From Apostichopus japonicus (Eukaryota > Echinodermata > Holothuroidea > Aspidochirotida > Stichopodidae): 64,000 nt of DNA. The stretch's first letter is position 1; every line of letters begins with the position of its first letter. A program made the position numbers and the translations under genes. Location of the stretch: positions 6,326,001 through 6,390,000 of the forward strand of contig NC_092566.1 in assembly GCF_037975245.1 (NCBI RefSeq), read 5' to 3'. The notes below the pieces were generated by a model. The model did not search any database. It was not told the DNA's origin and saw only the letters and a program-made list of their open reading frames with translations. Positions 6,106 to 51,857 of this stretch are shown piece by piece.

Positions 6106-6112
6106 GTTAGAC

Positions 6113-6134
6113 CAGGGAGTTGTTATGGACCCTG
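6113..6134. mobile_element. Hairpin insert H1 (CAGGG subfamily, 22 bp)
   Basis: Begins CAGGGAG and ends CCCTG, with a GTTGTTATGGA centre shared with H5-H7. The flanking 7-mers GTTAGAC (left) and GTCATAC (right) match at 5 of 7 positions, as expected of an old, mutated target duplication. The AC/GT flanks extend the stem. Membership rests on similarity to the better-preserved copies at 9094, 38172 and 40381. Confidence 0.6.
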
Positions 6135-6141
6135 GTCATAC

Positions 6142-7812
6142 ATACCCAGGGTGTTGGTGATTATTCATTGTCAGGTGTGATGGGGGAGGGCGGAGCCTGA
6201 ACGAGATTAAAACTCCTGTGGGATAAAAAGCATAATAAAAAGTTATGTGATGGAAGGAGGGGTGGGGGGGGGGGCTATAAAAGGTGCAAAGTAGACAACC
6301 AATGATTGATATGGAAACATAGAAAACTACATAAAAACCAGCCAGAGCAAAAGACAAGATGTCTTGACTTGTGGAGCTGCATGCCCTGGAAATAACTAAC
6401 ATTTGTGGTTAGTGGGGCATAGATTCGTTTTATACGGGATTGAGCCAAACTGCCATCTAGATTTGTTTATATTTTACTGTTCATTTCAGTTTTTATCACG
6501 AAACATGTTAGGCATACAACTATGATATTGGTATTTCGTGGGAAGTTCCATCCGTGGAAGGCAGTTCTTTCGGCGGTGAAAAGCGATTTGCGGCCTCAGA
6601 TTGACGCCGATTTTCGCTGATTTTGGAGGGGACAAGAAGTTTGGAGGGCCAGTGGGTGAGCAAGCGGTTTGGCGATGGTGACGTGCATGTTTGTTGCCGT
6701 GTTGGCAGTTTTTGAAGGGCTCTGTTTGAGATCGTATAGTGCCGTTTTGGTCGTTACGTTAACTTTGGTTCCGCTTGGCAGATTAAATAAGATCACACAG
6801 TTCGCACCATAGAATGGCTAGCATTTAAAAAAAACACATAACCCGATTTCTTGAGGAGTGGCTTAGAAGGGTCAATTTTCACTTTCAAGAAATTGGCACT
6901 TATTCCTGAATGACTATTTAAATACTTTCTTAAATGACCATTACATTTGTTGGCGGGAAAGTAGGGAAAAATAGGTTTGAACAAATGGGGTACTCTCACC
7001 ACAGGTACTTACTTAATGGAAACACCATTGCTATGGTGGGCAATCTAAGTCGCTTTAGTGTTCATACATGCATAATTCTCCGTGTGTTTCTATTTCTGCA
7101 GCATGGGTTATTGCTAAAGTGTGGGTGTTGACTCTAGAGGGTGTTATTATGTTTTACTTAACATCATTAAACAGCCAACTGACAGATTTGTTTTCGTCAA
7201 GTTAGAATAAATAATGAAGATCTTATACTCATTTATTTCTCTCTATCTAAATAAGTACATATGTTTTTAAACTATCATTCGATGTGCATGGGCGTAATGC
7301 GTTGTACAGATAGCATAGTTCTATATAACAGCATATAACGCGGTATCTTTTAATTCCTAAACACTGGCAAGAATCACTGAGAATTTTACAAGCCTACACC
7401 AGAGATGTGGATCTATTTACGAATCTCGCTCCAAGATATTAGTTGACAGATTATAAGACCCATGGCATCTTTTCTCGTAGTCTTATCAGTACGACATTAA
7501 GTGAAGCTGGTAACATAAGTTTTATCAATGAGATTTTATAAATTTTTAATTCATGACCAAGTGAGAATGATTTCTTGCCAAGTCACAGCACGTGTTCACA
7601 TATTTGCATTCCCATATAATATTAAATATTTACATCATTCGAATCAGGGATCTGTCACAGAGGTGGCAGTTTCCGACAGCACCCAGGTTGAATGGAGGAC
7701 TCTATTTCTCCCCTATCATATAGAAGTCAATTCAGAACGGCATTATATACACGCCGTGTGGGGTCACACAACTGTTGTGTAGACGTCCCCTCAGACACCT
7801 ACACTAGGTGTA
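6142..7812. other. Non-coding stretch
   Basis: No gene supported. It contains a G-run at 6264-6274 and otherwise unique-looking AT-rich sequence. Open frames near 6596-6796 and 7528-7782 show no domain or splice signals. Confidence 0.4.
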
Positions 7813-7816
7813 TTAA

Positions 7817-8280
7817 GGTGGCATACTCCTATTAGAGTCTATATCCATCCGCTCGATTGTTCTCCTATCTCAGGAATGGTGCCAAAAAAGCAGCAGGACA
7901 ACATCTTTTTTTTGACCTGTTATCAATCATGATCTAGTTTTTTTTGTGGCTTGCTTGTTGAAGAGCATGAATGGAAGTACATGTGGTGAGAAAATTGGGT
8001 GAATTAAGGCAATTTTAGACCCCTTTAGGCCTACCAGGAGCTGCGTAGGAAAATTGTTTACCACTGAGTGAAGAGGTTTGTTTACAAGTGACGAAAACTT
8101 CCGGCTCGGATATTAAAAAACTCTACATGGTCATGATACAAAAAATTGTTGGTGCCATGAAAGGGCAACTTGTCAGCTATCCGGTGATGCGTAGCGTTTA
8201 GATAGTAAAAACTTCTATCTAGACCTAGATACCACATTACTTTTGTGATTTAGTGTGTAAGTCGATGGGCGTGTGCTACC
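7817..8280 (+). mobile_element. Non-autonomous DNA transposon, family A copy 1 (464 bp)
   Basis: The ends are GGTGGCATACTCC and GGCGTGTGCTACC, which are inverted repeats of each other with 10 of 13 matches. The element is bounded by TTAA on both sides (7813-7816 and 8281-8284), a 4-bp target duplication. The whole length is repeated at 56280-56754, in part and inverted at 52664-52852, and again from 63594 to the window edge. No transposase frame is present. A TTAA target suggests a piggyBac- or Kolobok-like source, but copy 2 has TTCA duplicated instead, so the superfamily is uncertain. Confidence 0.8.
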
Positions 8281-8470
8281 TTAAAGCGCAGACGGAAGCA
8301 TATACCTATTACAAGTTCACACTCAACTAATGTACCATATATGCTTGGTAAAGATCATATACTTTTATCATAGATGTGAACGCAGAATATTATGCACCAT
8401 CACGGTAACACAGTTCAGGGAATGTTCTTTGTAAAGGTGCACTTTAAATGTGAGCTCGTTCTCAATAATG

Positions 8471-8917
8471 GTTAGACACTTCCATATAGTACAATCAAAC
8501 ACTCAAAATGTGAAATTGTGCTTAAAAACGGTCAGACACATCCATAGTACAATCAAACACTTTAAACGTGGAATTGTGTTTATTTAAGGTCAGACACATC
8601 CATAGTACATACACACACACACTTTAAATGTTAAATTGTGCTTAGTAAAGTTCAGACACATCCATAGTACAACAACACACTTTAAATGTTAAATTGTGTT
8701 TAGTAAAGGTCAGACACATCCATACTACAATCACACACTTTACATGTGGAACTGTGCTTACTAAAGCTCAGACACATCCATAGTACAATCACACACTTTA
8801 CATGTGGAATTGTGTTTAGTAAAGTTCAGACACATCCATAGTATAATCACACACTTTCAATGTGGAATTGTGCTTAGTGAAGGTCAGACACATCCGCACT
8901 GCAATTGTGCTCACAAG
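8471..8917. repeat. Minisatellite, ~58-62 bp unit, ~7.5 copies
   Basis: Tandem units beginning GTCAGACACATCCATAGTAC and running into a CACACTTTAAATGTGGAATTGTG block. Units differ by small indels and substitutions. The array decays after about 8900. It is an ordinary tandem repeat with no distinct spacers, so not a CRISPR array. Confidence 0.9.
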
Positions 8918-9093
8918 AATCATACTTTGAAAAGTCAGATACCTCTATCTATTGAAGGCCAGACCACTGTTTTACATTAGTGCACTATTTGCTTAGACAA
9001 GACGCGTGCATCTTACAAGTCCACTCATGCAGACTAATACACTAGGATTATTAACGATCAGACGCCTTCAAGGGAACCCATGCGACATAATAC

Positions 9094-9120
9094 CAGGGAG
9101 CTGCTACTCTCAGCTCCCTG
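9094..9120. mobile_element. Hairpin insert H2 (CAGGG subfamily, 27 bp)
   Basis: Perfect 10-bp arms CAGGGAGCTG and CAGCTCCCTG enclose a 7-nt loop. It is flanked by a perfect 7-bp direct repeat ATAATAC at 9087-9093 and 9121-9127, the expected mark of insertion with a 7-bp staggered cut. Arm bases 8-10 differ from H5-H7 (CTG instead of TTG), and the opposite arm has changed to match. Confidence 0.85.
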
Positions 9121-9817
9121 ATAATACACTATATGTTTAAAAAATGTCAGACATTATTCCCTAAGTCTTTTAAACTACTAAACTATACAGCTCAGACCCC
9201 TTTTGCATGAAAACACACATAAAATATTACATTATCATTTTGTAAAGGTAAGACAATTGTATGTGAGATTCTCACTCAATAGTAGATATGCGGTTACGAA
9301 AGTTGGCACTAGTTCATCGGACTAAGATGGCCCGTTTTATTTCGGGGAGGGCTTTGTACCTACCTTATGTCTGTCGCCCTCGAATGACCTCCGTGACTCG
9401 CAACTCAGATATGTTTGATTTTACCACGGCAACTGAGTTGGCCATAATAGGCCCCTATATGATCACCGAACTGAGACCTACTTTTAGCTTACTGGTTATA
9501 AACGAAGCAAACTGAAACTAACCTTTTCCCGATCCCTATCCGTATCAGCCTTAACCTCTTTGTTGCCTTAATTGCAATCTCAATGATTAATGATCTTGCC
9601 ACGTGCTTAGCCTGTATTTAGTAACGTTCGGCTTCCCTTAGCCTGTAAACATGGTGAGAATTGACCGCGGTGGAGGGAATTGTTTCTTTTGTCTATACCT
9701 TTCTCATTATAATGTGAATGGAGTTCATGAAATTGTAGTGTAACCGCCCGCATAGAGTTTGTCAGGGGATACTGGATTGTTATCGTGCTAACTATATATG
9801 AAAGCCTAACATTATAG

Positions 9818-9843
9818 CATGGAGGTAAACACAGACCTCCATG
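9818..9843. mobile_element. Hairpin insert H3 (CATGG subfamily, 26 bp)
   Basis: Arms CATGGAGGT and ACCTCCATG around an AAACACAG loop. It differs by one base from H11 at 51236, so it is a true family member. The flanking 7-mers (ATTATAG and ACGTCAT) do not match, so a target duplication is absent or lost here. Confidence 0.65.
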
Positions 9844-10170
9844 ACGTCATTCTGGCGTGTATTAAGCGAAAATCCATGTATAATTTATCGCTGTCTCTTA
9901 GTTACTCTTTACGTTATGCGCTATATATAGTCCTGTATCAACAAAGCCCACGCCTATACCTAATAGCAAATATGTTAATGTATATTATGTGTAATGTTGT
10001 CTTTGTGACATAAAGAAAAATATTTATGCCAGTTTGCATAAAACCCTCGAAGAGGTAGAACGAACTTCTGCAAATAGAATTCCATATTTTTGTTTTAAGT
10101 TTTATGATATTTTTTTTTGTAACTTATGAAGTAGCTCTGGAATATACAATATTAATATGTAACCTGATAC

Positions 10171-11190
10171 TCGCACTGGCGGATCCAGGGCCTTTGTTTG
10201 GGAGGGGCCAAAGTGGCATTAGAGTGATATGGGGGAGGGGTCTAAGGGGAGGGAGTGCCCCCTCCCCTTTGGAAAATTTTCTATTGCTGAATGCCCCCAG
10301 ATGCAATTTGGTGCGACAAAAGTGTACAATGGTGATGTTAATTTACTTCTAAAAACATGTTTCCCAGGTGTAATTTTCTAAAATATTTATAAAACAAAGT
10401 TGGGATCATCTTTTTCAAGATATTTTATTTCTCATAGGTTATAAATTTCTTACAACCAGCCTGTAACTGCAAAATGGTGTTAAACTGTAAATCCTCATGC
10501 TCATACATTTACATAGCTCCCAACTCTTGAGAAGGCAAATGCTGGTCCATGCCACGAATCGCCGTCCTGGGGGAGGGGTATAAGGGGGAGGGGGTGTCCC
10601 CCTCCCCTTTTGAATTTTTTTGGAATCCTGGTGATGCCTACATGTAAAATGGTGACACTTAGAAAGGCTTTTGTCACCCAAAATTTTCTGAGAAATATGC
10701 ATTTTTTTGTGTGTAACATCAATAAATTGAACAGTAGGTGATAATTCATTCTTTCCCGTGGCATGAAAATGTTCGCTGCTCGCCCCAATGAAAAGAAATA
10801 TAGGCTAATTTGAGGTTCAAATGATGCTGTAAAGGAGGTTTTATACTCTATTATGCTAAATGCTAAAGAAATGATGGTTGCTAAGTCAAAATTTGATGCA
10901 AATTTTTTATGTATACTTGACAATTACAATGCGGTTTTTTCGGACGCTTGTGCGGGTCAGCGGGTTTGGGTGTTAGAATGCGGGTCTAATTCCCGCGAAT
11001 TGCGGGTCAGTTGGGAGCTCTGCATTTAATTTTAAACCAGAAAACGAAAAGGTTTAGACTAGTCTACCACTGCTAATCCTCTCGATTTTTTTAATTTCCA
11101 ATCATATGATTTAGCGGATGTTCGGAAACACTCTTTGGCTCACCTTTGGGGGGCCATGGCCCCCCTTGGCCCCCCTTGGATCCGCCAGTG
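10171..11190. mobile_element. hAT-like non-autonomous element (1.0 kb)
   Basis: Terminal inverted repeats CACTGGCGGATCCA (left end) and TGGATCCGCCAGTG (right end). Flanking 8-mers CCTGATAC (10163-10170) and CCTGATAG (11191-11198) differ at one position, matching an 8-bp hAT target duplication. The interior has a second GGAGGGGG block near 10570-10605, which suggests a composite or nested copy. Open frames inside (for example 10501-10923 minus) are not recognisable as transposase. Confidence 0.75.
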
Positions 11191-11198
11191 CCTGATAG

Positions 11199-14100
11199 TA
11201 AGAGGGATACGAGATAATATCACATGTTTACAATGTGAAGATTTTTCGATTTCATTTCCTATATATTCCCAATATCCGCACTTTTGATATGTAAGTTCAT
11301 ATCTGTTTTTAAGTGTTAACATTTTTGTTGGATGTGGATTTAATACATAGAAATGGTGCTAAATGATACTAAGATAATATAAATGCCTACATAGTCTATA
11401 TTATTGAAAACATACGAAGAAGAAATATTTTGCACATTTTCCGGATTTTCCCCCGTTTGGTTAAAAAGTCATTCTTCCGATCTGTTCGCCTCGTATATGT
11501 TTTGCTCTCGTCGACTCCGTGACAAAAAAGGACCGGTGACCTACTTGATGTTGCCAAATATATGAATAATAAAGTCTTCTTGATACCAACGTTAATTTAT
11601 CAAAATGAGTGAAAGAACCAACGTTTCTGTTACACTTAATCTCCCAGATTTAAATTTCGCTGCTCAGTGGCGATAAATCCTTCGTAAATCCGGTATTCGT
11701 GACAAAGAATGTCGTGAGTTCGTAAGACTGCAGCACAAGTCCGAAATGCAAGGTAGGATGGCATTTGAGATAAATTATTCTGACATTCAAAACTTCGCCT
11801 ATAACATCAAATTCCCTTATAACATATAATACGCACAAACACAAATCATTGAGAAAAGTATTGAATTTACAATCGAATACTACAAGCAACAACGCTTGAA
11901 GTTTGCGGCCATTTATTCTCTGAGTTGCCACATGGAGTTGGATTAAAACTAAATACTTTAAAAATAGTTTGAGGCAATAAAGTAAGATGTAAACGGACTC
12001 AAATAGATTCAGATAAAGTTAACTGGGATTTATTAAAATGTCAATTCTCTTGGCGCAAACTTGAAACGATGCCTTCAAATTGGTTAAGGACGAACTCGCG
12101 TACATCGATTAGCCAATCAAATGGCAAGGACAACGTATCCAAATTTGTTTCATTGAATAGAAAGAATTTGCCTCGGATACAATTGTAAAAAGCTGATGCC
12201 GCGGGAAAAAAATGAAACAAAATTACAAACGCTTGGCCGAGACGTCGATGTTACAGATAAATAACAGACGACAGGGTGTACAGAAAGAGGGAGACTTTCT
12301 TTTATCTGTTTTGACATTAACAGCGGCGGTGGTAAAAAATATCGATTATTTAAACATTTTCATTGAAGAAAACAGTAGATACACAATCGAGAAACGCCGT
12401 GTAATATAGCTGATTCACAAGAAATACAGAAATAGCGTAAAATGGAATATCGCGTGTATATTTAGAAGGAAATCACAATTTTAAGAACTCGACTTTGTCT
12501 TAGCACTCAACACATGACTTTTACTATGAAAAGGCTGATCTTAGGCAAGAAGTTAATCTGAATATAATGCAAGTACTTAAAGTAGCTTATATTAGCGCAG
12601 ATTGCTGTCCAGTACGACATTACACATTTCACTAAGGACAAATCTTGTTGTTGTTCATTACCGTTTTTGGAATCAATACATTAATATATTCATCTATAGT
12701 ATACACATTAACCATCTAAAAAATGCTACAAGTTAAGTCCAAAGACCTCTCCTGTGAATTCACAACCTCAATATATTTAAAGACAATGAGGAGGGGGAAA
12801 TCGACTAGGGAATTTTTCTTGGAGGATAATACTATGTGCGGGTAAGGAGGGGGATGCGCGGCAGTAATGGTTTTCACGTAACACGCTGCAGTGTGTGTTT
12901 CTATACTTCCTGCTCTAGTGTGGTAGTCCTCTTGCATGGTTGCTGGAGGGTTGCCTTAAAGAACACCGTCGCGTTCTCATCGTAGGAAGGTCTTAAAGAC
13001 TCGGAATTCGCGGCTGTAACACGGCATTGGGTGAGATTGTCGAGGTATGGTGATGCCAGAGAAGGGTGAAGGTAAGGTGTGGACCGAACGTTACATGGAT
13101 TCACAAGCTAGCATCTCACTCTGGTGTCTTCGAGAGCTAAGGAAGTTGACAGGAGTAACAGCCAAATCCTATACTGTAGATCGTGTATCACGCAGACCAT
13201 TAAACCTATATATCGGGTGGTATTTCACTGACACCTTTCAGCAATTTGTGGCCGTACGTCTTCATTATTTCACTGCGTAAGTTAATTAGTTCGGAGACTT
13301 TCAAGATACTTGATCAACCTGGTTTTAAGTCACTGACACTTCTGACATCATCTTACCGCTGACAGTTTCAACTCCAGACAAGAGCGATCACGTGACGTAT
13401 TTTTTTGTCGTTGGTCCTTTTTCCTTCTTGAAAGATTAGATTAAAACTCTCGACAATCATTGACATGTATCCTCCTCTTTCCCGTCATTCTTCATTCCTG
13501 TCTCTCTCTCTCTCTTTGACCTTTCTCCTTTCCTTTCCCTTTCTCCCTGAAAATGCCCGGACAGGAGTTGATGATGTCATCGCCACGGTAATACCATTGA
13601 ATTAATTACACACATATATTAAACCGACTTAACAGATGTCTTGGTCTAATTTTATTAACAGCTGTAAGCTTGAGCTAGACAAGTTTACCCCACTGTCGAT
13701 TTTCCTATAAAGATTCAGTCGAATACAAGGGTACGGTGCTATGACGCCCCAATGCTCAATGTGGTTGCAAGAGATCCCTACAGGAATGTGCAATTGTCAG
13801 TTATGAAGTTTGGACAGACCCGGTGGGGAAGGGCGGGGAGGGGCGTTGACACGAGTCAGCAAACGCGTGTACCTTAATTCTGAGTTGGTAGCGACAAACA
13901 GTAGAGGGGAATCCTTGCAGTTAATGTTATAGACAGGCATGACGAGAACGGAGTCAGAGGCTAAAACCCGGATCCCCGCGGGTCAATTAGCTGGTCCGAG
14001 CCAATATGCATTAAGGAGAGAGGAAAACTTCAAAAGAAAGCCTGATTAGATAAATAGTCTATGAGGCCCAACTTCTGACCCTCGACGTGGTTATAGCGCG

Positions 14101-16228: not shown

Positions 16229-17250
16229 CTAAGAAGTATCTTGTAACATATCACATCCGAACCAGTCTTCTCCAAAGGACCTCGGATAACCGTAGTACAC
16301 ATTGCCTGTAGTACCACTGAGTACGTAGTACTGGTCTCCAGAGACCGCGTAATAGTTACCATCCAACCATCGCATGGCAGCATGAATATCTACGGTAGAT
16401 AACTGGTTCCATTGGGCATCAGTTGATATAAATTTCGGATATCCAGGGAAGATTCGATAACTGCCTTGATATATGCCAAATTTCCTGATGATGTTGTCTG
16501 CAAAGTGAAGTGGGCAAGAAAAATGTTATGTCAATTTTAGTCCAAACGGTTACAAAGTAGTTACAGATAACATATAGGAGTAAATTATCCTAACGAAATT
16601 ATGGGACGGTGAAGGGGCTGGATTGTTAAGCAACCAAAGGCTAAAAATCTTCGTCTTCAGAAATCTTTATCCATAAAAATGTCACTTCGATAATTCTATA
16701 GTTGGGAAGGCGGAATACTTATTCTAATCTCAATGCTAAATAATAGAAACGTGCCTCTCATTATGACGTCATCAAAATGTTCCTTCTAGTTTAGGGTCAG
16801 CAGTTTCAACCTATAAATATGTACAAAAGCCTTACAAAGTGTACGACCTTCCATCTCTAATATGGCTTCTCAGTTGATTTCTAGAATTCTATATTGAACA
16901 TGAATAAGTAAAGTACGCCCTCGTTTTGCTATGCATTTAAAATTCTTACATCTTAACGATGATGGGTGTTTCTCTAACCCTTGAACAAAATTTACCTTTA
17001 ATGAATACGATTGCGTAGTCTTCGACCAGTATTGCCGCACTAAGATCGTTTGGGATACCTATCCAGTTTGCCGTGATGGATCTGGGATAATCTACATCAA
17101 TTGCTTTGGGATATGTGATATCCCCTGCTGTGAAACTATACCGGTAATAATTAGAACCCTGTGGAAGAATGACAAAGGAAACGTAAACTATCAAAAATAT
17201 TTAGGAACAAGAAATAGGATGTTAATTTGTAGCATCAGAGTTGCCATCAT

Positions 17251-17319
<69 letters not shown>

Positions 17320-17351
17320 CATATATATGTATATATATATATATATACATA

Positions 17352-17397
<46 letters not shown>

Positions 17398-20300
17398 TAT
17401 AGTTGAAATTGTAGTGAGTTGGAAAATCCAGAACAGTGAAAAAATACTCTAGGAGGCATGTCATAGTGTGGATGATCACAATCCTATTTTGAATAATACT
17501 CGTTAGGTTTGATAAAAGTGCCGACAGAACTCAAAGAGTTGCTTTAAGGGGTTTTTCAATGTATTTGGTGGTATAAGATGAAGCTTACCGCAAATAGGTA
17601 AAGTTTCGAAAACTTTGTCCAGTACACTGCCGCGTCTATATTAGTTACCGACTCCATGATAGGACCAAACGCTTCTACTAACGTCTTCGGAAACCCTTCG
17701 CTTACACTCCCTGGTCTAGTCAGATGAAAAACTTCTTGACCTGATGAGATAAGAGAGTTTCAAATTTTCAATGAAGAAACGAACCAAAATGTTCATCCAT
17801 GAGACCATGACGTTTTTCAATTTAGTTACATGATAAGAATTAAATTCTCTGACGTTTATATTAACCAATCACAAGTTGCTGAGAAAAACAACGATAGGTT
17901 GCTATGCGGTTTGCATTTGCGTGGGGTTAGGCCACAAACAATATGTTTTGCAGTTTTATTCAACACTTTAATATTATAAATGCGCAAATGTGTAAAGCTT
18001 AATGTTAGTAGCGTAATAGTGTGGCCATTCACAATTCTGTTGCACCGGACAACCCCGTGCCACGCAGAGTCCCGTATGCAGCCGTACAGCCTCGTGCTTT
18101 GAGAACTATATCGTGACTACGATTGACCTAAAGCTAATCATACGAAGATACCAAGTTTCATAGTATGAGCGTTCCATAACCTTGCATATCAGGCGGTCTC
18201 CAATTTTGAAGAAATTCTTGTTTATTACCATATCATTTTGGGAACAGATAATTTAACACCAATCCTCAAGTTGGAGTCGGTGTTGAGTATTGAAATAAAA
18301 ATAAAATAAAAATAATCCTCAACATGTTTACGCTAATATGCACGTGCATTACCTGCAAATGCAAGCACACTTCCGTCGTCCATGGTTGCCATGGCATCAA
18401 ATTCAAGATGACAATTATCGTCCGGCATTGGAGCTTCTGGAGCTGGGATCTCTTCTTCAGTACCGGGAGCATTCGGAACATTAGGACCTGCAACAAATAA
18501 TAAACCAATTTCAAATGTAACTGAAACCATATACAATCGTCTCTCTTTCGAAAGTGTGTTATTTGTGTATAGCGTCACCACTTTGCTGTGTTATACTTTT
18601 TCTTTACAATATCGTACTATCATTGTAAAGCATCACTATTCTATATCATTACTGGCTCATTATGTTACGGTGACAATACTCACAAAGTTTTCTCATACTA
18701 GCCTATACGACCATTAATTATCTTTTTACATCACTTTATCATCAACGGATTCTATGTTTACAACCTTATAAATTTACCATCGCATAGTATCATCATCACT
18801 AACCTTCATACACGTTGTATTCTTTTAACATCACCTATATTATCATTACATCATTTACATCGTTTCTCGGCAATTTAGTAGCAGTGGTCTCGCTACTTGC
18901 CGTAATTCCAAGAACATATTTTACATAATGTGATACATTCCCAACAAGTATCAGAAGGGTCTCCAAGTTCAGCCTTCTCTCTTCAAGTTTGTAAAGTGAA
19001 TCCGACGAAACGACACGTGGGGAAGTAAACACAAGGCCACAGAACGGGGGTCTGTCCAAGAACCAGCATATTTGTTTATTAACTTCTGAGAAAATTTCCT
19101 TTAATTTTTAAGATATATTACTATTTATTACAGATTTGTTAATGTGCTAAACTTCAATAATTAAAAAAAAATTGTCCATTTAAAGGGAGTGAAGACTCGC
19201 GCACAAAGAAACGTCCGATGCCGGTAATGTGACCTAGTTTCGAATGAGGTGTAACAGAAGTGTTAGACACCACCATCGATCCCAGAAAACACACACACAG
19301 CTTGCTACCGTCGGCGGTAATTAGACACTAGTGTACAGTCAATGCATGCAGCTACGGTCAATACCCACAACACAGTGTACATAGCAGCGATGGACATCGC
19401 AGGTCCAAATAAAAGATAACAAGGTATCACGTTTTCATTACTGTCGGCATTTTGTAGCGGCAAGAAAGAAACTTCACTTGCAAGCAACGGAAAGTTAACC
19501 TTTTTAGAGGGCGGCACGCGGTTTGGTGCGAGTCTTCACTGCCTTTAAGTTTTGAATGATTTCTTACCGTAAAGTGCCTGGACACCCATAATATCGTCAT
19601 TCGACAAATGAAAATTGGGATCATATGTGGATCTGTATAATGCATGCATGACAGTGTTTGGGTATGAGTGACCCAGAGAGAGGGTGTGGCCAATTTCATG
19701 CAGAGCAACTTGGTAAAGATTAATACCTGCAGAATAACAAGAAAAAAGGGAACATATATCACATCTTCATAAACTTCACATGTATTATAAAAAATGAATA
19801 TTTTGAATATTAATTGAGCAAGTATATACTTAACGATTCCCATTCGATTTTATCAGCGTTTTTTTTTTGTCTAAGACAAATTCAACATTTTCTAAAATTT
19901 CTTCATGATCTCAATTGAAAAAAAAAACCTTTAGGAGATTTGGTAATTGAGATATATTATTGTTAATATTAATATTTGATTGGTATTAAATAATCATCAA
20001 ACGTCAGGGTAAAAAATCCGTCAGTGTTCATAGTGGAATGGTTCAATATAATATCTGCATAAAACGCAAGTCAGTACAAGACTTATGATACTCGGGGTGG
20101 AGGAACTTGAGGGGGGTTGGGGGGGGGTAAGGGGAGGATAATGTTATTGACAGTCGTACATCACTTTAAGAGGAAGGGATGGGAAGGGGAAAGTAGAGGA
20201 GGAAAGGAAAGTGGGCAAAAGTAAAGGTAAGTGACGAATATTAAATCAATATTTGTCATGTTCATGGTGTCAACAATATGCGTGCAGTGGGAGGGAGGGT

Positions 20301-21845
20301 TTGGTGGGGGGGGGGGGAGACGATATACATCCTCATATTGGCACTGGTAATTATTTGATGTTTTCTGGCTGGAAGGGTTCGGTCACTCATGATTGGTTTC
20401 ATTCTTATCCCAATTAATGTGTTTCTTTACTGCATATACATAAGGATTTACTATGCATTTGTGCTTCTCGTGTCTGCTTCTTACGGGAATCTTGTGTCTT
20501 TTGGAATTGCACCACCCAACACCCCAACCTGTCCCCCCTCCGATCCCTTCCACAGATTACAATTTGCCGTCGGTGAATAAAGACAACCTGCCTCTTCCGT
20601 TCTCCACATCCTTCACCCGTCTCCCTTACATTTCCCTAGCTTAGGTTAAATTATAAAGTCTCTTACCGCCGTTCATAAGGACCCATTGTTCATCCGCGTC
20701 CATGTGAATGTCACCATTGTGCCCTTCGCCGTTATTGTACGGAATAAAAGCGTGGGCCAGAAGACCATTTGGACCATCGAAATTTTGAATATCTCCGTGG
20801 TTACCTCTCACGAACGAGATTTGGATATCTGCGGCTGGATCTGGTACTTGATAAAACGTAAGACCACAAACATTTTGCCAAGACTACGTAGAAATTAAAT
20901 GGGGGGAAAAAGAAAACAGAATATTATAGGCTATTTATGATACCGTGCATTTCATTATAAGAAGAAGGATGATTCAGGTTTTAAGTCTAGTCAAAACAGG
21001 TTCCTTGGTAGTTTGGACCAGTAAAACACTAGATTACCAATGTTACTAACCTCGCATGCACCAAGTCAGTTTTTTAATTGCAACGTACAGCATACAAGGC
21101 TCATTGGCTTTGAGAGTAAAAATCAACTCCATGTGGTTATGGGGTTTCATCTGATACAAGTCGTGATTATGAAATGACATGGTACAAGCTGCTTGACAAG
21201 TATAGACGAGATATATAGTTTTGTGTGTGATACTGTAAGATCTAGGAGTACTGTAACTGGAGAGCTTATCTGTAAATACAGTCTTGTGAAAGTGACTGAG
21301 ATCAGGGACTAACATAATTGGGATAAAACATCCATAAAATATCAGATAGGGTATTAGTCTTTTCCAACACCAATATAATTTTCAATCAATTGTGGATTTC
21401 CTGCAGTTATAGATCCGAAAAGTAAACTCGGGATAATAAATGACTTACATCAAAAGCTCTTCTAAACGTGGCTTCGACGTCACCCATGGATATAGTAGAG
21501 GGCGTATTTACAATATTATATGTGACGATGTTCTTTGTCCACTTCACGTTACGGGCAAGGAGATAACGACGTGTCCTTCTGTCCTCATCGTTGGCGTCTT
21601 CTTCTTTACACGGAGGATTTTCCATCATTTTAAGAGTGTCTTCATCTAAGTCACCTGTACATGGGACAATATGAATATCATAATTGAGCTGTTATTCTTT
21701 AACGAATTTCAGTTTCGTGATTTTTGCACCCGCCCGTGTTGCTCACCAACCTGAGCGGTCCACATTGCAAACCTTGCTGTTTCCGACAGGAACATTCAAC
21801 GCGTCGAAAGTATCCAAAATATTACCAATTCTTAGATTAGCCTTT

Positions 21846-26037: not shown

Positions 26038-26155
26038 AACAAGGTATCGTTCATTGGTGTTCTACACAAAATTGAATTTCAGGAAGTGAAATGTTGCTCG
26101 CATGCATTGTTATAACTTGTAGACCACACACGGCAGGTTTCCAAGTTAGTACGAC

Positions 26156-26179
26156 CATGGAGCTATAAATAGCTCCATG
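26156..26179. mobile_element. Hairpin insert H4 (CATGG subfamily, 24 bp)
   Basis: Arms CATGGAGCTA and TAGCTCCATG around a short TAAA centre. It is flanked by a perfect 7-bp direct repeat GTACGAC (26149-26155 and 26180-26186). Compared with H3 and H11, arm bases 8-10 read CTA instead of GGT, and the partner arm matches the change. Confidence 0.85.
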
Positions 26180-26340
26180 GTACGACAAATGCTATGTGGT
26201 CAATGATTGAGCAATTCACAGAAAAAGAGTTGTCATAAATAGCACAAGGCCGAAGGAAATTGTTTCAGATATTACGTAATAAATTGAATTCAAATTATTG
26301 GATATGCATGGAAGGGAATGATTATTATTATTTTGGAAAG

Positions 26341-37959: not shown

Positions 37960-38345
37960 AGAAGACTCGCGCACAAAGAAACGTCTGATGCCGGTAATCT
38001 GACCTAGTTTCGAATGAGGTGTAACAAATGTGTTAGACACCACCATCGATCCCAGAAAATACACACACAGTTTGCTATACCGTCGCTTGTTAGACACTAG
38101 TGTACAGTCAATGCAGCAACATACAGTCAATACCCACAACACATTGTACATAGCAGCGATGGACATCTCAGCAGGGAGTTGTTATAGAACTCCCCTGATC
38201 TCAGGTCCAGATAAAAGATAACAAGGTACCACGTTTCATTACTGTCTGCACTTTGTAGCGACAAGAAGAAAACTTGACTTGCAAGCAACGGAAAGTTACC
38301 TTTTTCAGAAGGCGGCACGCAGTTTTGGACGAGTTTTCAATGCCT
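37960..38345 (+). mobile_element. TTAA MITE, family B copy 3, carrying a hairpin insert
   Basis: Same orientation and sequence as 19184-19544. The right end TGCCT is followed by TTAA (38346-38349). The left end is eroded (CTTAGAAGACTCGC) and lacks TTAA. It carries the extra 33 bases described as H5. Confidence 0.8.
38172..38197. mobile_element. Hairpin insert H5 with empty-site proof (CAGGG subfamily, 26 bp)
   Basis: Arms CAGGGAGTT and AACTCCCCTG around GTTATAG. A perfect 7-bp direct repeat ATCTCAG lies on both sides (38165-38171 and 38198-38204). The sister MITE at 19184-19544 reads GGACATCGCAGGTCC at the same spot, with a single ATCGCAG and no hairpin. Insert (26) plus one duplicated 7-mer equals the 33-base length difference, so this is a filled site next to a preserved empty site. 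Confidence 0.92.
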
Positions 38346-39611: not shown

Positions 39612-39649
39612 TATATTTCATCAGTAAACACCATTTTAAGTCAATATCA

Positions 39650-40135: not shown

Positions 40136-40380
40136 CCGTATTATACTTTTTTGACATGTCCATCAAGTTTTTTACATATATCAATCACAAAAGAGCCGAC
40201 TAAGATATTTATAAGATATTTGCAGATAATGAGAAAAGTGTCCACGACAAACTCGATATTTAAAATTAATCGCATACAGTTCCCCCAAACCTACTAGTTT
40301 GAATTCAACCAATCAGAGATATGCAGGTTTAGTGATGAGCCGTTGCTAAAAATAGATTCAAGACTTTGCGTTGGTACAAC

Positions 40381-40405
40381 CAGGGAGTTGTAATGGAACT
40401 CCCTG
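40381..40405. mobile_element. Hairpin insert H6 (CAGGG subfamily, 25 bp)
   Basis: Arms CAGGGAGTT and AACTCCCTG around GTAATGG. A perfect 7-bp direct repeat GTACAAC flanks it (40374-40380 and 40406-40412). It lies inside the 5.5-kb inverted-end element, so it arrived after that element. Confidence 0.88.
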
Positions 40406-41110
40406 GTACAACTGCCATATAGACTGTACACAAATCAAGCATGGTGTTGTATTATGGATTGGTCAATGACGTTCGTAGTGTATATTCATATTATCGGTGA
40501 GGTTTATTGGGATTCCAACGGATAATATCTTGGAGAAAAACACAGTTGAAAGTTGCAAAATTTTCAACTTTTATGCCACCATTTGAAGTAAGATTTAAAT
40601 AGATGGGCTAGTTATGTATGTCGTTATGGCATACTTGTAGTGGAGTCAGTGAGGTTGAGAAAAATCATAGAAAAGCACGCAAATTGTTTTCTTGCACATG
40701 TAATTATGTATGCACAGTTACCGTAGAATGTGTACCGTAACAGTGCAATAAATGTACTAGATAGTCTATACTATCCACACTTTTGCCATCTGTGGGCACT
40801 GTGCTTGATATTATGATATTATGCCGATATGGATTATAATATTGAACTGGCAAGAGAAGTCACAGGCCTTTACCAATTTTAATGAGCAGTAAACTTCTTG
40901 CATATAAGTACAACATGATATGTACAAGCATTAAGCATCACTACACACTTAACCCTACTGTCCAGAGAATACACACTTTTTATATATATACTGCACATAT
41001 ATACAGTTTCAGTCAAAACCACTATGACCAACCCACAGCTGCTGACCTTGTTCTGTGAACTGCTTGTAGTTCAAGGGTCCCATTAACCTTTGAGCAATAA
41101 GGTGTATCCT

Positions 41111-42479
41111 ATGGCACGAGAAAGCGGAATATATTACGTACAAATATATATATGCTGTACTTGCGAAATATATACATGGTTAACTTCAAAAATACATTTT
41201 AGACATATTTGTATATTTGTATATATGTTTATAATAATATATTATCTAACAATAAGTATTCTGTAAATATATAGATACTAAGACAAAAATTATAAGTTTC
41301 TATGCCAAGAATATATTTAATCTCTAAGAGAAAAAAATATATATATTCTCTAAGAGAAAACAATATATATATTATCTAAGAGAAAAAAATATATATTTTC
41401 TAAGAGAAAAAAAAAATATATTCTCTAAGAGAAAAATATATATATTCTCTAAGAGAAAAAAAATATATTCTCTAAGAGAAAAAATAAATATATTCTCTAG
41501 GAGAATAAATATATATATTCTCTAAGAGAAAAATATATATATTCTCTAAAAAAAATATACAATTGAGTGAAATGCGCCCTGCACCACTGACGTAACAGTT
41601 TACCTGCCTTGCAGATTTCAATAGGCACTTGCGGTAGATCGCAGGATATTTGAGCTGTGCAAATGACTTTCACACGTTCGTTTCCTTTGCAAGGTTTGGC
41701 AAACTGCTTACGTAACACACCGGCTAACGTTCCAAACTAATAACCTTGAAATGTGAAGAAGTGAGCAGTTACTGTTAAGCCGGCTAGTTACGTACGGTAC
41801 AGAAGGCTTCGCTGTCGAACGTACCGTAGTACAATCAGGGAGTTGTTATGGAATAATCCCTGGTACTATCATGTGCAATGTGATATCGCAAACCCACTAA
41901 CTATGAACTGCATTAAGATTCTGAGCAAACATGTGCGTTTTATGAATGGCCAGTGTAAAGAACAGGCTGGTCACTGCTGAAGTTACTGAACATCTCAGTC
42001 AGCACTTACAGAGCTCCGTACTTTGTACAGCATATATATTTTTCGCACGGAATATATTTTTCGTACAGAATATATTTTTCGCACAGAATAGATCTTGAAT
42101 ATTAGAGAATATATATATTTTCTTTACACACAATTAAAATATATTTTTGCACAGAATATAATTTCTCCTGTAGAATATATATTTTTTCTGTCTCAGAATT
42201 TATATATTTTGCTAGAGAAAAATATTTTTCTGTCAGAGAATATATGTTTTGGTACTTTGTACAGCATATATATATTTTTCGACCAGAATATATTTTTTTC
42301 GCACAGAATAGAATTTTGTTGTTAGAGAATATATATATTTTCCGTACACACAATAAAAATATATTTTTGCACAGAATATAATTTTTCCTGTAAAATATAT
42401 ATTTTTTCTGTCTCAGAATTTATATATTTTGTTAGAGAAAAATATTTTTTCTGTCAGAGAATATATATGTTTCTTAACA

Positions 42480-42527
<48 letters not shown>

Positions 42528-45402: not shown

Positions 45403-45410
45403 TCTACCTC

Positions 45411-45778
45411 CAGTGGCGTAGGAAGGTACTTTTGAGTGGGGGGGGGGCTGAAGACTGATGGCCGGCCTGGGGGAGGGGTCTCAGGGGAGGGGGTGTCCCC
45501 CTCCCCCTTTGGAATTTTTTTGCATTTCCAGGTGGCCTCAGATGCAATTTGGTGCAATATAGCACACTTCAACTCCCACTCCATTTTGTAAAGAATTTTG
45601 CATTTTCACCTGGCCATGCAATTTGGTGCTCCAAGTGAGATTTTTTTTCTCATTTGGAAATGAAAAATGGGTTTTCTGACTTGCGGAGTGGGGGCGGAAT
45701 GATACTTCCGCCCCCATATTTTTCACTGGGGGCTGGCGCCCCCCCCCAGCCCCCCCCCCCCCGGTTCCTACTCCCTTG
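45411..45778. mobile_element. hAT-like MITE (368 bp)
   Basis: Left end CAGTGGCGTAGGAAGG and right end CCGGTTCCTACTCCCTTG are imperfect inverted repeats. The flanks TCTACCTC (45403-45410) and TCCACCTC (45779-45786) differ at one position. The left half is G-rich and the right half C-rich, as in the other CAGTGGCG-type elements of the window. Confidence 0.7.
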
Positions 45779-45786
45779 TCCACCTC

Positions 45787-47838
45787 CTCCCCCTCCCACT
45801 CCCCCTTCTTACCCATTACCATCAGTGCCGATATTTTGGTTATTGGATTAGGTGTCTCGTTAGCGAATGTGATTTCTCAAATCATATAATTGATTTACAT
45901 GAATAAATTATGTTAATATTTGTCAAATTATGTCATTAAACAACTCACCGGTCTAAATTTCCTAAAAGAGGGAATTAATCTGGCAACAAAAAAGAGGTAC
46001 AGCCTGAACAAGATATTGAAATACGGTCTTCGTTAAACATGGATGTCGGCTATACCCAGTTAAATTATCTGTATATGTCACATGAATTTCCCTAAAAATA
46101 CCCCAAATTATTCATGCACGCACGTCCCCAATCTCAAACCTCTCTATGCTCCTATATACTCATGTTTGCGAGTTGCGAATTTGGAGCACACTGAATTCAC
46201 CCACGTGATAGGCTAAACGGGCATACCTCGCATAATCATATGATACACCAACGATTACAAGTGCGGTACCATGCATTTGAATATCATGGGTAGTATCGAA
46301 CTCGAACTTTAAATCGGGAGCAGTAGGAGGGGGGGGGGGGGGTCTGTTGGACTCGGACTCGGCCGGGTTTAGCTTGGAATTGCCTTAGATTAGTGTAATT
46401 TGACAAACTTGAATCAATACTTGCCTTGGTTCAGTTTTTCTGGTTTTTATTTAAATATCTAGTTAAATACAACTCCGGCTGTAAATAATCTACACTTTTT
46501 TTGCCGGGAAGTGTGAATAACGGTATTCAAAAACAGCTGTAATCTCAGAAATCACCAAAGACGTGTGAGAGACTAAGATACGGCTATATCTGGGCAATAA
46601 GGAAGGCCTATATAAATCGGCAAACTGCGTAGTGTGGCTCCGGCCGAAGGAAGTTTTTAAAAAAAAGGGGGGAGGGGTTAGTATCCATTTTCCAGAGCCG
46701 TTAATTGGACTAGTTATATATACCGCTCTGTCATTTCCCCAAATACTGGCTATCTCACGTGTTGATAGTGTGTCATTAGGGTTTCCTCATTACTTAATGA
46801 TAATGCACTTTAGTAGTTCTTTAAATAATGACTAGACGGGTTTTATGCCGGGATTTCCACCTAAAGTACGAAATGTTTACATCAATACATCAGGAACTAT
46901 GATAGGCTTTTATTTGCAGCTGTATAGTGTGTATATTTAGATCAGGTTTTTGCTTGGTTAGAATGATTCTTTACAACTGTTGAATCGGTGACCCTTTACA
47001 CTACCATCGTCGAGGCGTAGACAGAAGAACAATGACCATTATTTAGTTAGATTACTACGGCTATTTCGGCTATTTCACGTGCATTTGTACACAAACCTTC
47101 CTGGTATACGCTTCCTTATTGGAGTAATCCTGAAAGTCGATAGTTGTCTGTCAGGAACACGGAAGCTAGGCGCAGGCTAGTCTTGTTCGAGACCCTGGCA
47201 TTCGGTTGCTACTTTGCCTGTTACAATTAATATGAGTGCGCCCTCGCATCCTCTCACATCCTCTTTCGAACATCTGTCACAACCTTTCGTTTGAGGTACC
47301 GCACCACACTTAGAGTAGTGTACATCCGCTCGAAAGGTTAACCATTGTCAGAGAAGAGGGGTAAATGTACCTAAGGTAAAGCTTGTTTTAGCATGTTATC
47401 AGTTACTGTCATTGGTCGTTCTGCCTTTATATGAAAGAGCATAATTTAAAGTACAGATGGTGTGAAAATAAGGAAGATCGAAGGTGATATAAACCATTTA
47501 AAAAAAATCTTTGGTTAAATGTTGATATTACTCCGAGCGAGCAGATGGAAGGGTGGGGGTTCGGTTTGCTAAACTTGCTCCTCTTCTAGCTCAAAATCTA
47601 AAGGGTCCTGATATGGAAGTTTGCAAGTGCTATGATAGGCCAAGATCTCAGCTATCTTGTGGTGGGTTTTGGATGTACCAGTTGAAAACTTCTATCTATG
47701 CTTTGGCATGTCTTGAAAGTGACGAGTTTAGTAAGTCAATGAAACAATTAATTGCGGTGTGAGACCTAAAGGCTAGTTCCCCTGACAAGCAACTTTGAGG
47801 AGGGGCGCCCTCAGTTAGTGTTATATTCGGAAGCAGGA
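45787..47838. other. Non-coding stretch
   Basis: No gene supported. A G-run lies at 46330-46342. An open frame at 47553-47762 has a protein-like composition but no recognised motif or splice signals. Confidence 0.4.
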
Positions 47839-48013
47839 CACTTCGCCCAACAACCATTTCGCCCAACTGCCATTTCGCCCAACCTTACCATTTCGCCCAA
47901 CCAGCCTGGTCATTTCGCCCAACCAGCCTGGTCATTTCGCCCAACCAGCCTGGTCATTTCGCCCAACCAGCCTGGTCATTTCGCCCAACCAGTCTGGTCA
48001 TTTCGCCCAACCT
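47839..48013 (+). repeat. 22-bp array TTTCGCCCAACCAGCCTGGTCA, forward
   Basis: About eight units; the unit is TTTCGCCCAACC plus AGCCTGGTCA. The first three units lack the AGCCTGG part. All three frames read through as FRPTSL/HFAQPAW/ISPNQP-like repeats because 22 is not a multiple of 3. Confidence 0.92.
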
Positions 48014-48038
48014 TGATTAAATGTGATACTTCAAAAGG

Positions 48039-48362
48039 AAACGTTCGGGAATTGTTAACGTTACAGGATACGAACCAAATATTAAGGAAACTTGAGGATC
48101 GATCAGTGTGTTAGGGGTTAGGTTTGATAGTAAACGTTCGGGAATTGTTAACGTTACGGGATACGAACCGAGTATTAAGGAAACTTGAAGTCGTGGTTAA
48201 ATTGATTACATATGTGATTACATATGTGGTTACATTGATAAAGTGGTTACATAGTACTTAAATATTACGGACGGGTTTTATATTATTTTTTTTTTTCAAT
48301 TTATTAAGGAAACGTTCGGGAATTGTTAGTCAGTAGGATGGATCAGTGTTTTAGGGGTTAGG
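48039..48362. repeat. Duplicated spacer segments between the inverted arrays
   Basis: A segment with AAACGTTCGGGAATTGTTAA and GATACGAACCRARTATTAAG occurs at 48039-48105 and 48133-48189. Part of it, joined to GATCAGTGTNTTAGGGGTTAG, recurs at 48307-48362. Confidence 0.8.
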
Positions 48363-48605
48363 AGTTTTTATGAAGACCGATTCCCCTGTGTTTGTATAAT
48401 AATATAACTTCCATTGTATGCGTAAACGCCTAAAGTAGTGTAAGACTCCCATTATACCCGAAATAACTGCTCAGACTCCGATCGATATCGAGCGAACTCA
48501 CTTTTTTATTTACCTATTACGAAGTAACCTTACCCAAAATAAATCAAATTGAACTAGTGGAATAGAAAAAGTAATATTATTCTGACTGAATATTAGTAAA
48601 ATTAA

Positions 48606-48731
48606 GGTTGGGCGAAATGACCAACACGGTTGGGCGAAATGACCATGCTGGTTGGGCGAAATGACTATGATGGTTGGGCGAAATGACCATGCTGGTTGGG
48701 CGAAATGACCAGGCTGGTTGGGCGAAGTGAC
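48606..48731 (-). repeat. 22-bp array, inverted copy
   Basis: About six units of the same 22-bp repeat on the opposite strand (GGTTGGGCGAAATGACCATG form), 590 bases from the forward array. Together the arrays make a large inverted repeat. Confidence 0.92.
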
Positions 48732-49385
48732 TAGAAAGCTTATATTCGACGGTATAGAGAACAAACGACTTGACAAAGACTATAGAGCGCGGGGATGAAA
48801 TGGTGACTTTAGACATCCAGGAAGTTTATCATGATGATATGCTATAGACGGTTAAACAAAAACACTGCTTTCATTCCAGGTTGTACATTCCCTAGCGTTT
48901 GAACGTTTGCTCCTTTAAACATTCGAGTATCAAAGTGACTGGAACTACTTTAATAGTTTGAAAACATAAACCTGCATTAGGTCAGTTCCTCAGATGCAAA
49001 CAAAAAAGAGAAAAAGAAGAAGCGAGAAACAATAGACTTTAACGGCCAAAGACTAAGGGTGTTTTGTTGTTCTTATGAAGTACTGTAGTTAAAAGAACAG
49101 GTCTTGGTTGATTTCAATTTATGATACAATGGATTAACATTAACATATAGTTCTAAACTGAGAAACCGATTGATATTTCAAATGTTTCCGGCATTCAATT
49201 TTGGTATGAACTATCGATATACTTGTCATTCTGCAGTGAACGAGTTTGTTATTTTTCCTCTTACACAGAGATGCATGGTCTGTAATTATCTTTGCCATTT
49301 CCAGTGAAGAACGATGAACAGGAAACTCATGAAAATTCATATTTATTATACAAACGTAAATGATGGCGCTATTCACTACCATAAA

Positions 49386-49470
49386 CCAGAGCCTTATCTG
49401 TATATAAGGCTCTGCCATAAACCAGAGCCGTACACAGCTCTGCCATAAAGCAGAGCTATATACGGCTCTC
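49386..49470. mobile_element. Hairpin insert cluster H8 (CAGAGCC subfamily)
   Basis: First hairpin at 49386-49414, arms AGAGCCTTAT and ATAAGGCTCT, with the 7-mer CCATAAA on both sides (49379-49385 and 49415-49421). It is followed directly by 49422-49470, a longer hairpin with AGAGCCGTA pairing TACGGCTCT and AGCTCTGC pairing GCAGAGCT, which contains CCATAAA again in its middle (49443-49449). This is a nested or tandem set of related inserts re-using the same target word. Confidence 0.75.
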
Positions 49471-50707
49471 AGCTGGTTTACTGTAATGGACAGCGCCCTT
49501 TATTCTATTTTTAGTGCTTTATGACCTTGGGTAGACCCCTCCCCCCCCCCCACAAAAACAATACATCGTACATATGTTCAAAATAGCCGACGGAACCTCA
49601 ACACAAAGGTAGATTCTCCTTCTGATCATTTTTTGTGGTATTTGTGGCCTATTCTATTTTGTGCAGGCTATGTATGGGGAAATTGCCGCCATTTTGGCAT
49701 AAATAACATTAATGTGCAACATTGACGCTTGGGAAAAACTGATTTAGGAATATAATACATATTGCTAACAAAATATTATGGGTTTCATGTATACCCCGTG
49801 ACTTTGCAAAGAAAGTTAAGTTTTAGATCACTTTTCCTACTACGGCCCACGGCCTAACATAGACTAACAAATCTATGACTAAAAAAATTGTTTCATACAT
49901 TTTTAATTTATACTGAGCTTGTTGGTGTTTTTTTCAACAATCTGGTTTCAGAAGTAGCCACTATACTTTAACGACTTTCCATTCTTAATTTCTACTTGAA
50001 CGGTAAGAAAAAGCTCGTTACTGCGCATTAATTGATTACAATAAAGGGAAACGAAAGCGTTTGATCCTAATATTATAATCCTATAGAAGCAGTTTGTAGT
50101 CTAAAATCATTGATAGGAATTGGCGAAGTGTTTAATGTTATTCACACATTATATGAGAATGCAAAGCCTCTTGTAAATAAGCATGGTAATGAATTAGATC
50201 ACTTTCAGTGTAATATATAGGAGTTCGGACCATAAAAATGAAATTTAGTCTCAAACATATATTGTTGACTATTTATCGCAATGGCTTTGGATGCTTTATC
50301 AGTTGCCTGTTGAAAGGCCTGCTAGATATGCCAGGTTCAATGAAAAGGTTATTTAGCAATCTTCGAGTACAAGTTATTCTAAAGCTGATTTATATGTTTA
50401 TTATATATTGATGTGACTTTAACGTTTCAGCTTAGAAGGATTGTGCTCTCCAGTGTGTATTAAATGGTATAACGGGGGGGGGGGGGGGGAAACAAATGTT
50501 TAATGTGATATATGGCACATGAAGGTAAATACTAGCATGTTTAAAGATAAAATACAGAATAATTGTATACATTCAGGAACTACTTTCAATTATTGTAATC
50601 AAACGCTATCAACCACTCACAAGTCAATCATGTACAGGAGACGGGGCGCTCTGCAATTTATAACGCACCCTTTAAGCTCATTCTAAGTTCTTCAGCTCCA
50701 ATTTATG

Positions 50708-51125
50708 GATGGTATGATACAGGTGGTTAGTTTCAATGTTACATCATGTATAGCCACACAGAGCATTAATTTATACCCCATCATTTTCTTGTTTTGATGG
50801 AATTGAATGATACAGGTGGTTAGTTTCAATGTTACATCATGTATACCCACACAGAGCATTAATTTATACCCCATCATTTTCTTGTTTTGATGGAATTGAA
50901 TGATACAGGTGGTTAGTTTCAATGTTACATCATGTATACCCACACAGAGCATTTATACCCCAATATTTCTTTGTTCTGACGAGGTTGAATGGTACAGGTG
51001 GTTAGTTTCAAGGTTACATCATGTATACCCACACAGAGCATTTGTTCTGATGAGGTTGAATGATACAGGTGGTTAGTTTCAATGTGACATCATGTATACC
51101 CACACAGAGCATTTATACCTCACCA
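50708..51125. repeat. Tandem repeat, ~65-95 bp unit, ~5 copies
   Basis: Units contain GATACAGGTGGTTAGTTTCA, TTACATCATGTATACCCACA and CAGAGCATT. The first three are about 95 bases with an ATACCCCATCATTTTCTTG spacer; the later ones are shortened. Confidence 0.9.
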
Positions 51126-51235
51126 TTTCTTTACCTATGCAGAGCTTATATATCCCACCAAGCTTTGTCTTATGTGACACTGACACGTTATTCTGACGTC
51201 ATAGAGGAATATTGGTAAGATCGAATAGTACAAAC

Positions 51236-51261
51236 CATGGAGGTAAAAACAGACCTCCATG
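51236..51261. mobile_element. Hairpin insert H11 (CATGG subfamily, 26 bp)
   Basis: Arms CATGGAGGT and ACCTCCATG around AAAAACAG, one base different from H3. A perfect 7-bp direct repeat TACAAAC flanks it (51229-51235 and 51262-51268). Confidence 0.88.
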
Positions 51262-51857
51262 TACAAACCAATCACTTGTTGAATTCTTAGCTAAGGAGCT
51301 CAATTAGTTGCGTCAATGCGTAAATTGTAGCAGGAATCCCACGGTTCATGGAGAAGGCAAAACAAAGATGGAAGAATCAGGAAAGGACAGAGGCTACTTA
51401 TAGAAAGACAAAATAGAAAATTGATAATTGATAATGCCTTTAATTTCAACAAAGTAAAATACAGAAAACTTTACACACTTTTACGAAGACAGTGACAGGG
51501 AAGCAATTTTTTCTGGTAATAATGAAACACGGAAAAGGAACCCCAAAAACCTATTCAGCACATAAAGATGGCGGTTTAGCTTTGGAGGATTACTTGGGTT
51601 TCAAGAAGAACAATTTTTTGTCGTGATATTATAAGGTTGCTTTGTGCATGCTAACGAATCTAGGTCAGTCAAGACTACGATAAGGAAGTTTCAAATGCTT
51701 GACCACACTTGAAATCCGGGTTTGTTGAGCCGAATGTTACTCTTGTGATTATTGAACCGTACTCTGAACGAAGCCATTGAAGTTTGACCTAATAATTGTG
51801 TCTAGTTGATATGATACAGAAGGGACTATACGGTATAAAGAAGGGACTATAAAGAAA

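Follow-up and report, generated by a model that had tools for sequence, protein, structure and literature searches.

In Rad51-deficient Drosophila, the products of P-element excision consist of two copies of the target repeat that enclose up to 17 nt from each element end, and an identical join was recovered up to 14 times (PMC2895639, Table 1). The P transposase cuts 17 nt inside the Drosophila P end, according to the relevant passage of PMC7776569. Here, we describe a family of short hairpins in 64 kb of DNA from the sea cucumber Apostichopus japonicus (C6:6326001-6390000 of the 671.6-Mb assembly; this whole stretch is called the window), which are very probably excision footprints of the same kind, left where DNA transposons of the P superfamily had inserted and were then cut out. 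As in the Drosophila footprints, inverted end remnants stand between target duplications, microhomology joins recur, and there are insertions, of which those in Drosophila are called templated by the authors of that study (PMC2895639, passages on junctions). The Drosophila data differ in their 8-bp duplication and 17-nt tails, and they stem from one engineered element with new events in Rad51-deficient flies, whereas the sea cucumber has families with 7-bp and 8-bp duplications, tails of 17-18 nt and many natural scars fixed in the assembly.

Galileo and 1360, both of the Drosophila P superfamily, have the 7-bp targets GTANTAC (PMC4168063) and GTTNAAC (PMC3276498), and the 7-bp target duplication with a GT...AC palindrome is common to both and to the scars described here. 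The passages on Galileo and 1360 cover the elements and their target sites, not excision scars, and the likeness described here is that of the target site. Zebrafish Pdre2 / THAP9 is likewise P-type outside the insects, is excised by its own transposase, and has short terminal inverted repeats and an 8-bp target-site duplication; it differs from the 7-bp scars in that duplication length, and its excision products in S2 cells have larger flanking deletions (PMC10983969, in the sections concerned). In a surface-level survey of one open-access library, based on listings, no account of a natural, genome-wide archive of such footprints came up.

Hairpins and flanking repeats in the window and the genome

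A preliminary description of the window had listed nine hairpin loci of one design. All nine sequences were found where it had placed them, and eight are genuine members of the family, namely short inverted units with CAGGGAG or CATGGAG ends, with perfect flanking repeats at five loci and a 6/7 match at one. Four end types were distinguished, A (CAGGGAGTTGTTATGG), B (CATGGAGGTAAAAACAG), C (CATGGAGCTATA) and D (CAGGGAGCTGCTA), and the centre is variable inside each type. All loci are given on the + strand. The A-type scars lie at 6113-6134 (6106-6141 with flanks), where the flanks GTTAGAC and GTCATAC have diverged to a 5/7 match and the left arm agrees with the intact element end over 17 nt; at 38172-38197 (38165-38204), between perfect ATCTCAG repeats; at 40381-40405 (40374-40412; 25-bp class), between perfect GTACAAC repeats; and at 41836-41862 (41829-41869), where the repeats GTACAAT and GTACTAT agree at 6/7. 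The last three are inside dispersed repeats (L087 and L093 for 41836). The B-type scars are at 51236-51261 (51229-51268; perfect TACAAAC repeats) and at 9818-9843, where the flanks match at 2/7 and the repeat was presumably lost by flank deletion or decay. A C-type scar is found at 26156-26179 (26149-26186) with perfect GTACGAC repeats, and a D-type scar at 9094-9120 (9087-9127) with perfect ATAATAC repeats.

The remaining locus, 49386-49469, was rejected as a member. CAKGGAG ends are absent from it, and it overlaps a tandem array of 28-bp units at 49401-49469; its left 7-mer matches again at 7/7 at an offset of 28, and the array accounts for its direct repeat. The flank scores that the preliminary description had given were all reproduced (7/7 at 9094, 26156, 38172, 40381, 51236 and 49386, 6/7 at 41836, 5/7 at 6113, no matching repeat at 9818), except that the 7/7 at 49386 is due to the tandem array.

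The view that the flank identity is beyond chance was borne out by several comparisons. Perfect 7-mer matches at spacings of 21-29 make up 976 of 575,397 comparisons in the window (0.17%, with tandem arrays still included), and when the right flank was slid by 1-3 bases, the best agreement at the window loci was 4/7. The pattern CAKGGAG-N5-16-CTCCMTG occurs five times in the window, and none of 100 first-order resampled windows contained any such hairpin. The genome scan that the preliminary description had proposed gave 3,788 exact matches to this pattern against 100 for the reversed pattern, so that about 0.36 would be expected in the window at the genome average, compared with the five present.

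The flanks were then scored in the 50 matches listed of the 3,788, which cover the first 8 Mb of C1 and give 49 distinct loci after removal of one duplicated locus (L014). Their 7-mers agree at 7/7 in 29 and at 6/7 in eight, and these numbers become 34 and eight among 55 sampled matches when L026 and the five exact window loci are added. Grouping by flank reduced 56 rows to 48 clusters, of which 30 have identical 7-mers and eight agree at 6/7, which is not the outcome that the preliminary description had named as fatal to it, namely flank identity no better than at random positions. With the comparison offset by one or two bases, a 7/7 match was obtained in 1 of 192 cases. The duplicated site has a palindromic, GTNNNAC-like motif, with G at 65% and T at 82% and the complements at the opposite end (34 sites). 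At one sampled locus (L041, C1:3254298-3254356), two units stand back to back (GTCTAAC-scar-GTCTAAC-scar), and the right flank of the second does not match.

An empty site was found in the window itself. The dispersed repeat that hosts scar 38172 has a second copy at 19191-19549 (+) without an insert, where a single 7-mer, ATCGCAG, takes the place of ATCTCAG-scar-ATCTCAG and differs from it by one letter; therefore, something inserted there and duplicated 7 bp. Scars 38172, 40381 and 41836 also occur in other copies of their host repeats, and the other sampled copies of the 40381 repeat bear the same scar with point changes. Some scars, three of the eight in the window, were thus multiplied with their host repeats, and the 3,788 matches exceed the number of excisions because scars in dispersed repeats were copied along. 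Most hairpins are probably separate excision events, since the two samples contain 48 distinct flanks among 56 rows and 42 among 62 rows, respectively.

A probable source element and the inferred cut site

The preliminary description had also suggested a search for longer, transposase-encoding elements that share these ends, and this search was decisive. A pattern that excludes the common joins gave 203 matches, and convergent pairs were sought among the 100 listed, so that further pairs may exist. Convergent inverted ends, CAGGGAGTTGTTATGGAAT, were found at C3:19626415(+) and C3:19638456(-), which span 12,042 bp and are flanked on both sides by GTCTGAC; on the left side, the sequence of the intact end is CAGGGAGTTGTTATGGAATGGAGTTC. 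An end pattern preceded by the left 7-mer, or by the complement of that 7-mer, gave four matches (control 0), of which two are these C3 places and the others lie on C8 and C21, one on each. The C3 element encloses a 628-aa open reading frame (ORF) with PF12017 and PF21787 above the cut-off, which are P-type helix-turn-helix and RNase H domains, while a further frame inside it carries PF21789. There is also a match inside the element to the Drosophila P transposase (PDB 6p5a), with an E value of 1.4e-9. The position of this transposase between the ends suggests that it acts on them. No match to a THAP or GTP-binding domain was obtained in three L134 frames, each scanned singly from the unassembled split gene, and the N-terminal part of the P-type ORF at L134:1376-3259 scores weakly, at 18.3 bits and below the cut-off, against the RAG1 importin-binding family. 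The C3 element would belong to the P superfamily by its P-type transposase between inverted ends, subject to the copy on C17 that is considered below. The 7- or 8-bp palindromic GT...AC target duplication of that superfamily is present, and a long staggered cut is indicated indirectly by the scar arms.

P transposase sequences are found elsewhere in the genome, PF12017 at 12 places and PF21787 at 45. The PF12017 loci were considered as a source of the A type and rejected, as the twelve 10-kb stretches hold no CAKGGAG end pair with matching flanks. Inside the window, there is no 7/7-flanked pair of such ends, and the single 6/7 pair, 14 kb apart, connects two scars. No such ends were found within the 5.5 and 4 kb read at a C16 cluster of P fragments (L135, L136), and no element-sized convergent pair among 69 places with GGAK continuations that were inspected by eye. 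At C2:29714454-29719013 and C12:11435185-11439664, convergent A-type ends form mirror-image sets with a spacing of about 4.5 kb, and each set has one further copy of the end 225 bp towards the interior; these may be shorter elements.

The position of the cut was estimated from copies of the element end. The first 16 nt of the A end occur 1,977 times in the genome, and among the 100 places listed there are three convergent neighbours less than 40 kb apart, of which those at 43 bp and 5.5 kb are scars and the third spans 21 kb. From these 100, 61 end copies in 60 stretches were examined, namely every one of the 43 on C2 together with 18 of the 57 on C1. Among the C1 stretches, nine were chosen as not being exact hairpins and others as close neighbours, so that the sample is tilted towards non-hairpin places. 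In all 61, agreement with the intact C3 end stops at nt 16 (7 copies), 17 (4), 18 (47) or 19 (3), and no intact end is among them. A second end was recognised in 48 of the 61, with flanks at 7/7 in 36 and at 6/7 in six; at least four of the remaining 13 (L078, L079, L089 and L093) are, by eye, scars with a mutated second end or flank. The scar arms thus place the A-type cut at probably 17 or 18 nt inside the end, where two values are given because the other side of the join could supply the 18th base. For the A type, the target duplication, the remnants of both ends with nothing past the cut, a source element and an empty site have all been found.

A second P family gave an independent prediction. 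Five PF12017 loci (L028-L032) are related copies, in which the left end reads CACTGATCTACACTAAC followed directly by TGGATAGG in L028 and L031, and the right end in L032 has one change within those 17 nt; the end is readable in three of the five copies, as CACTGATC. Hairpins predicted from this end, CACTGATCT-N2-22-AGATCAGTG, gave 176 matches against 1 for the control. Among 41 scars sampled in 40 stretches, drawn from 50 listed of the 176, 31 have perfect 8-bp flanking repeats, five agree at 7/8 and none has a 7-bp repeat; for the 37 distinct flanks, 28 are perfect and four agree at 7/8. The target motif is likewise a GT...AC palindrome. The arms reach AAC and then end, with none of the 37 distinct scars extending beyond the first T of TGGATAGG, and a variant two bases longer ends two bases later.

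Two features of these copies were also observed. At L032:2500-2545 (C16), the P-element left end together with the 8-bp target repeat (CAATGAGG on the right) appears to have been turned around where it stands, and the break falls close to the cut site, which possibly reflects an aborted one-ended excision. In addition, a CATGGAG- or CATAGAG-type palindrome lies about 2-2.6 kb upstream of the transposase match in the five related copies (L028:2311, L029:7401, L030:7220, L031:2273 and L032:2890).

Junctions and alternative explanations

In the proposed reaction, the element would insert at a GTNNNAC-like site and duplicate 7 bp, a step supported by the empty site and the 34-site motif. The transposase would later cut one strand at the outer edge of the element and the other about 17-18 nt inside, as the arm stops suggest, and because of this stagger, each chromosome stump would retain part of the element end as a 3' tail after excision. 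Since the two tails would have the same sequence in opposite orientation, their joining would leave an inverted repeat of about 20-35 bp between the target-site copies. Joining would prefer 1-2 nt of microhomology and at times copy nearby DNA into the break. Alternative end joining of the polymerase-theta type may repair the break; the junction pattern is observed, and the enzyme is suggested by it. The resulting scars are presumed to be immobile on their own. The preliminary description had offered products of hairpin-end repair or integration as one possibility, which is right in essence, with a 7-bp duplication at insertion and end joining after excision; a hairpin-end intermediate is unnecessary because the 3' tail left on each side supplies the inverted arms.

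The junctions were analyzed in A units with flanks of at least 6/7, which comprise 62 rows and 42 flank-independent units. Simple joins account for 29 of the 42, and 13 have insertions or changes, some of them point changes only. The simple joins have microhomology of 2 nt in 17 cases, 1 nt in nine and 0 nt in three, compared with 2, 6 and 30 of the 38 possible products, and this excess was reached in none of 100,000 uniform draws from those 38. With one 18-nt tail kept whole, the 28- and 25-bp products are the only ones with 2-nt microhomology; they are also the commonest (10 and 7 of 42), and next come the 29- and 26-bp products with 1-nt microhomology, each found four times. In the second family, the best predicted join of the CACTGATC variant with GTAC in its tail (6-nt microhomology, 22 bp) is the most recurrent, with 7 of 41 rows and four distinct flanks. 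Two inserts appear to be templated, as in polymerase-theta repair: L082 (flanks 7/7) contains a re-copied target repeat and end, and L169 (flanks 6/7) a string of short copies.

The second possibility raised by the preliminary description was that of minimal transposons. MITEs (miniature inverted-repeat transposable elements) are short, dispersed and non-coding, with inverted ends and a target duplication, and they are mobile units of fixed sequence. The scars share the short dispersed inverted-end anatomy with target duplication; they differ as end products whose centre is set by the repair junction. If the 25-29-bp palindromes were ultra-short non-autonomous MITEs moved by the P transposase with a 7-bp duplication each, the often perfect flanking repeats would be accounted for, and so would the recurrence of one 28-bp unit at 10 and one 25-bp unit at 7 flank-independent sites whose target repeats differ. 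However, the 42 independent A units comprise 21 different sequences, some differing by point changes only, instead of one internal sequence that moves whole, and the two commonest units correspond exactly to the two joins that have the greatest microhomology if one 18-nt tail stays intact. The arms end near the cut site, the inserts in L082 and L169 look templated, a full-length transposase-bearing element has the same ends, and the second P family repeats the anatomy with its own ends and 8-bp repeats. Kaufman et al. (1989) reportedly found that the Drosophila P transposase requires internal element sequences, for which the units would hardly be long enough. We therefore regard such minimal units as very improbable.

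Still less probable are internally deleted elements from interrupted gap repair, in which copying from the sister chromatid would have stopped early. Most wild-type products of one Drosophila P excision assay begin with such synthesis, according to the passages of PMC2895639 that concern them. Interrupted copying predicts variable lengths of element past the cut, whereas all 61 sampled A-type ends stop at nt 16-19 and none of the 37 distinct second-family scars passes the first T after the cut. Longer deletion derivatives, distinct from these hairpins, may exist as well. Chance, RNA genes or recombination sites unrelated to transposition, to which the short hairpins with duplicated flanks that tandem arrays can yield would lend support, apply to 49386 but are refuted for the family by the 3,788 matches against 100, the flank identity, the empty site and the lack of any Rfam match at the hairpins.

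Several points weigh against excision footprints. Flanks match at 5/7 or poorer in 13 of the 55 sampled matches, scar 9818 included, and the identical 25- and 28-bp sequences at unrelated sites are expected of a mobile mini-unit too. Although junction microhomology and templated-looking insertions are present, two further predicted 2-nt joins (26 and 24 bp) are absent from the 49 sampled loci. The junction test assumed a tail of 18 nt, a value taken from the data at a time when the intact end had yet to be read, and the 18th base may have been contributed by the opposite side of the break. A lone match of the 7-mer plus end carries little weight because C8 and C21 each have a single one, and the evidence is the C3 pair. 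The C3 transposase region has a second copy on C17 (98% identical), but the similarity begins 694 bp inside the left end, and in the stretch read, the C17 copy has nothing in common with the 694 bp outside that point on the left. The C3 element could therefore carry the transposase as a passenger. Finally, no source element was found for either the CATGGAG types (B and C) or the CAGGGAGCT type (D), and the hairpins of these three types are assigned to excision scars by their shared design and flanks.

Implications and surrounding sequence

P excision footprints are already known from fly experiments, where the usual object of study is a single engineered element. As excision footprints, the hairpins would make the sea cucumber genome a fossil archive of numerous excisions in which one element of the main type is still full-length, and the cut stagger, the target motif and the spectrum of germline end-joining junctions would be measurable from sequence alone. 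For annotation, they are a warning that such a hairpin between target duplications is not necessarily a MITE or an RNA gene. They may also serve as directional markers, insertion first and excision afterwards, for dating transposon waves. A more speculative idea, which we put forward tentatively and consider rather doubtful, is that this lineage loses P elements mainly by heritable excision without replacement, and that fixed scars far outnumber surviving elements; the basis offered for the latter is the count of no intact end among the 61 sampled copies of one end type. If true, the scars would be a deep-time record of germline end joining, from which cut length, repair choice and templated copying could be read without experiments.

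The exact 25-mer gave no match in the viral collection IMG/VR. The window also contains matrix metalloproteinase exons (Pfam M10 and hemopexin) on opposite strands, at 16232-21691 (-) and 57663-61361 (+), which are apparently two genes. A hand-joined metalloproteinase query is best matched by sea cucumber proteins, the top match being from Apostichopus japonicus with 80% identity over 57% of the query. At 51858-51934, there is a 77-nt sequence resembling U2 small nuclear RNA (snRNA; Rfam RF00004, 47.7 bits), whose 5' part matches well and whose body is mostly absent, and which is possibly the head of an snRNA-derived repeat.

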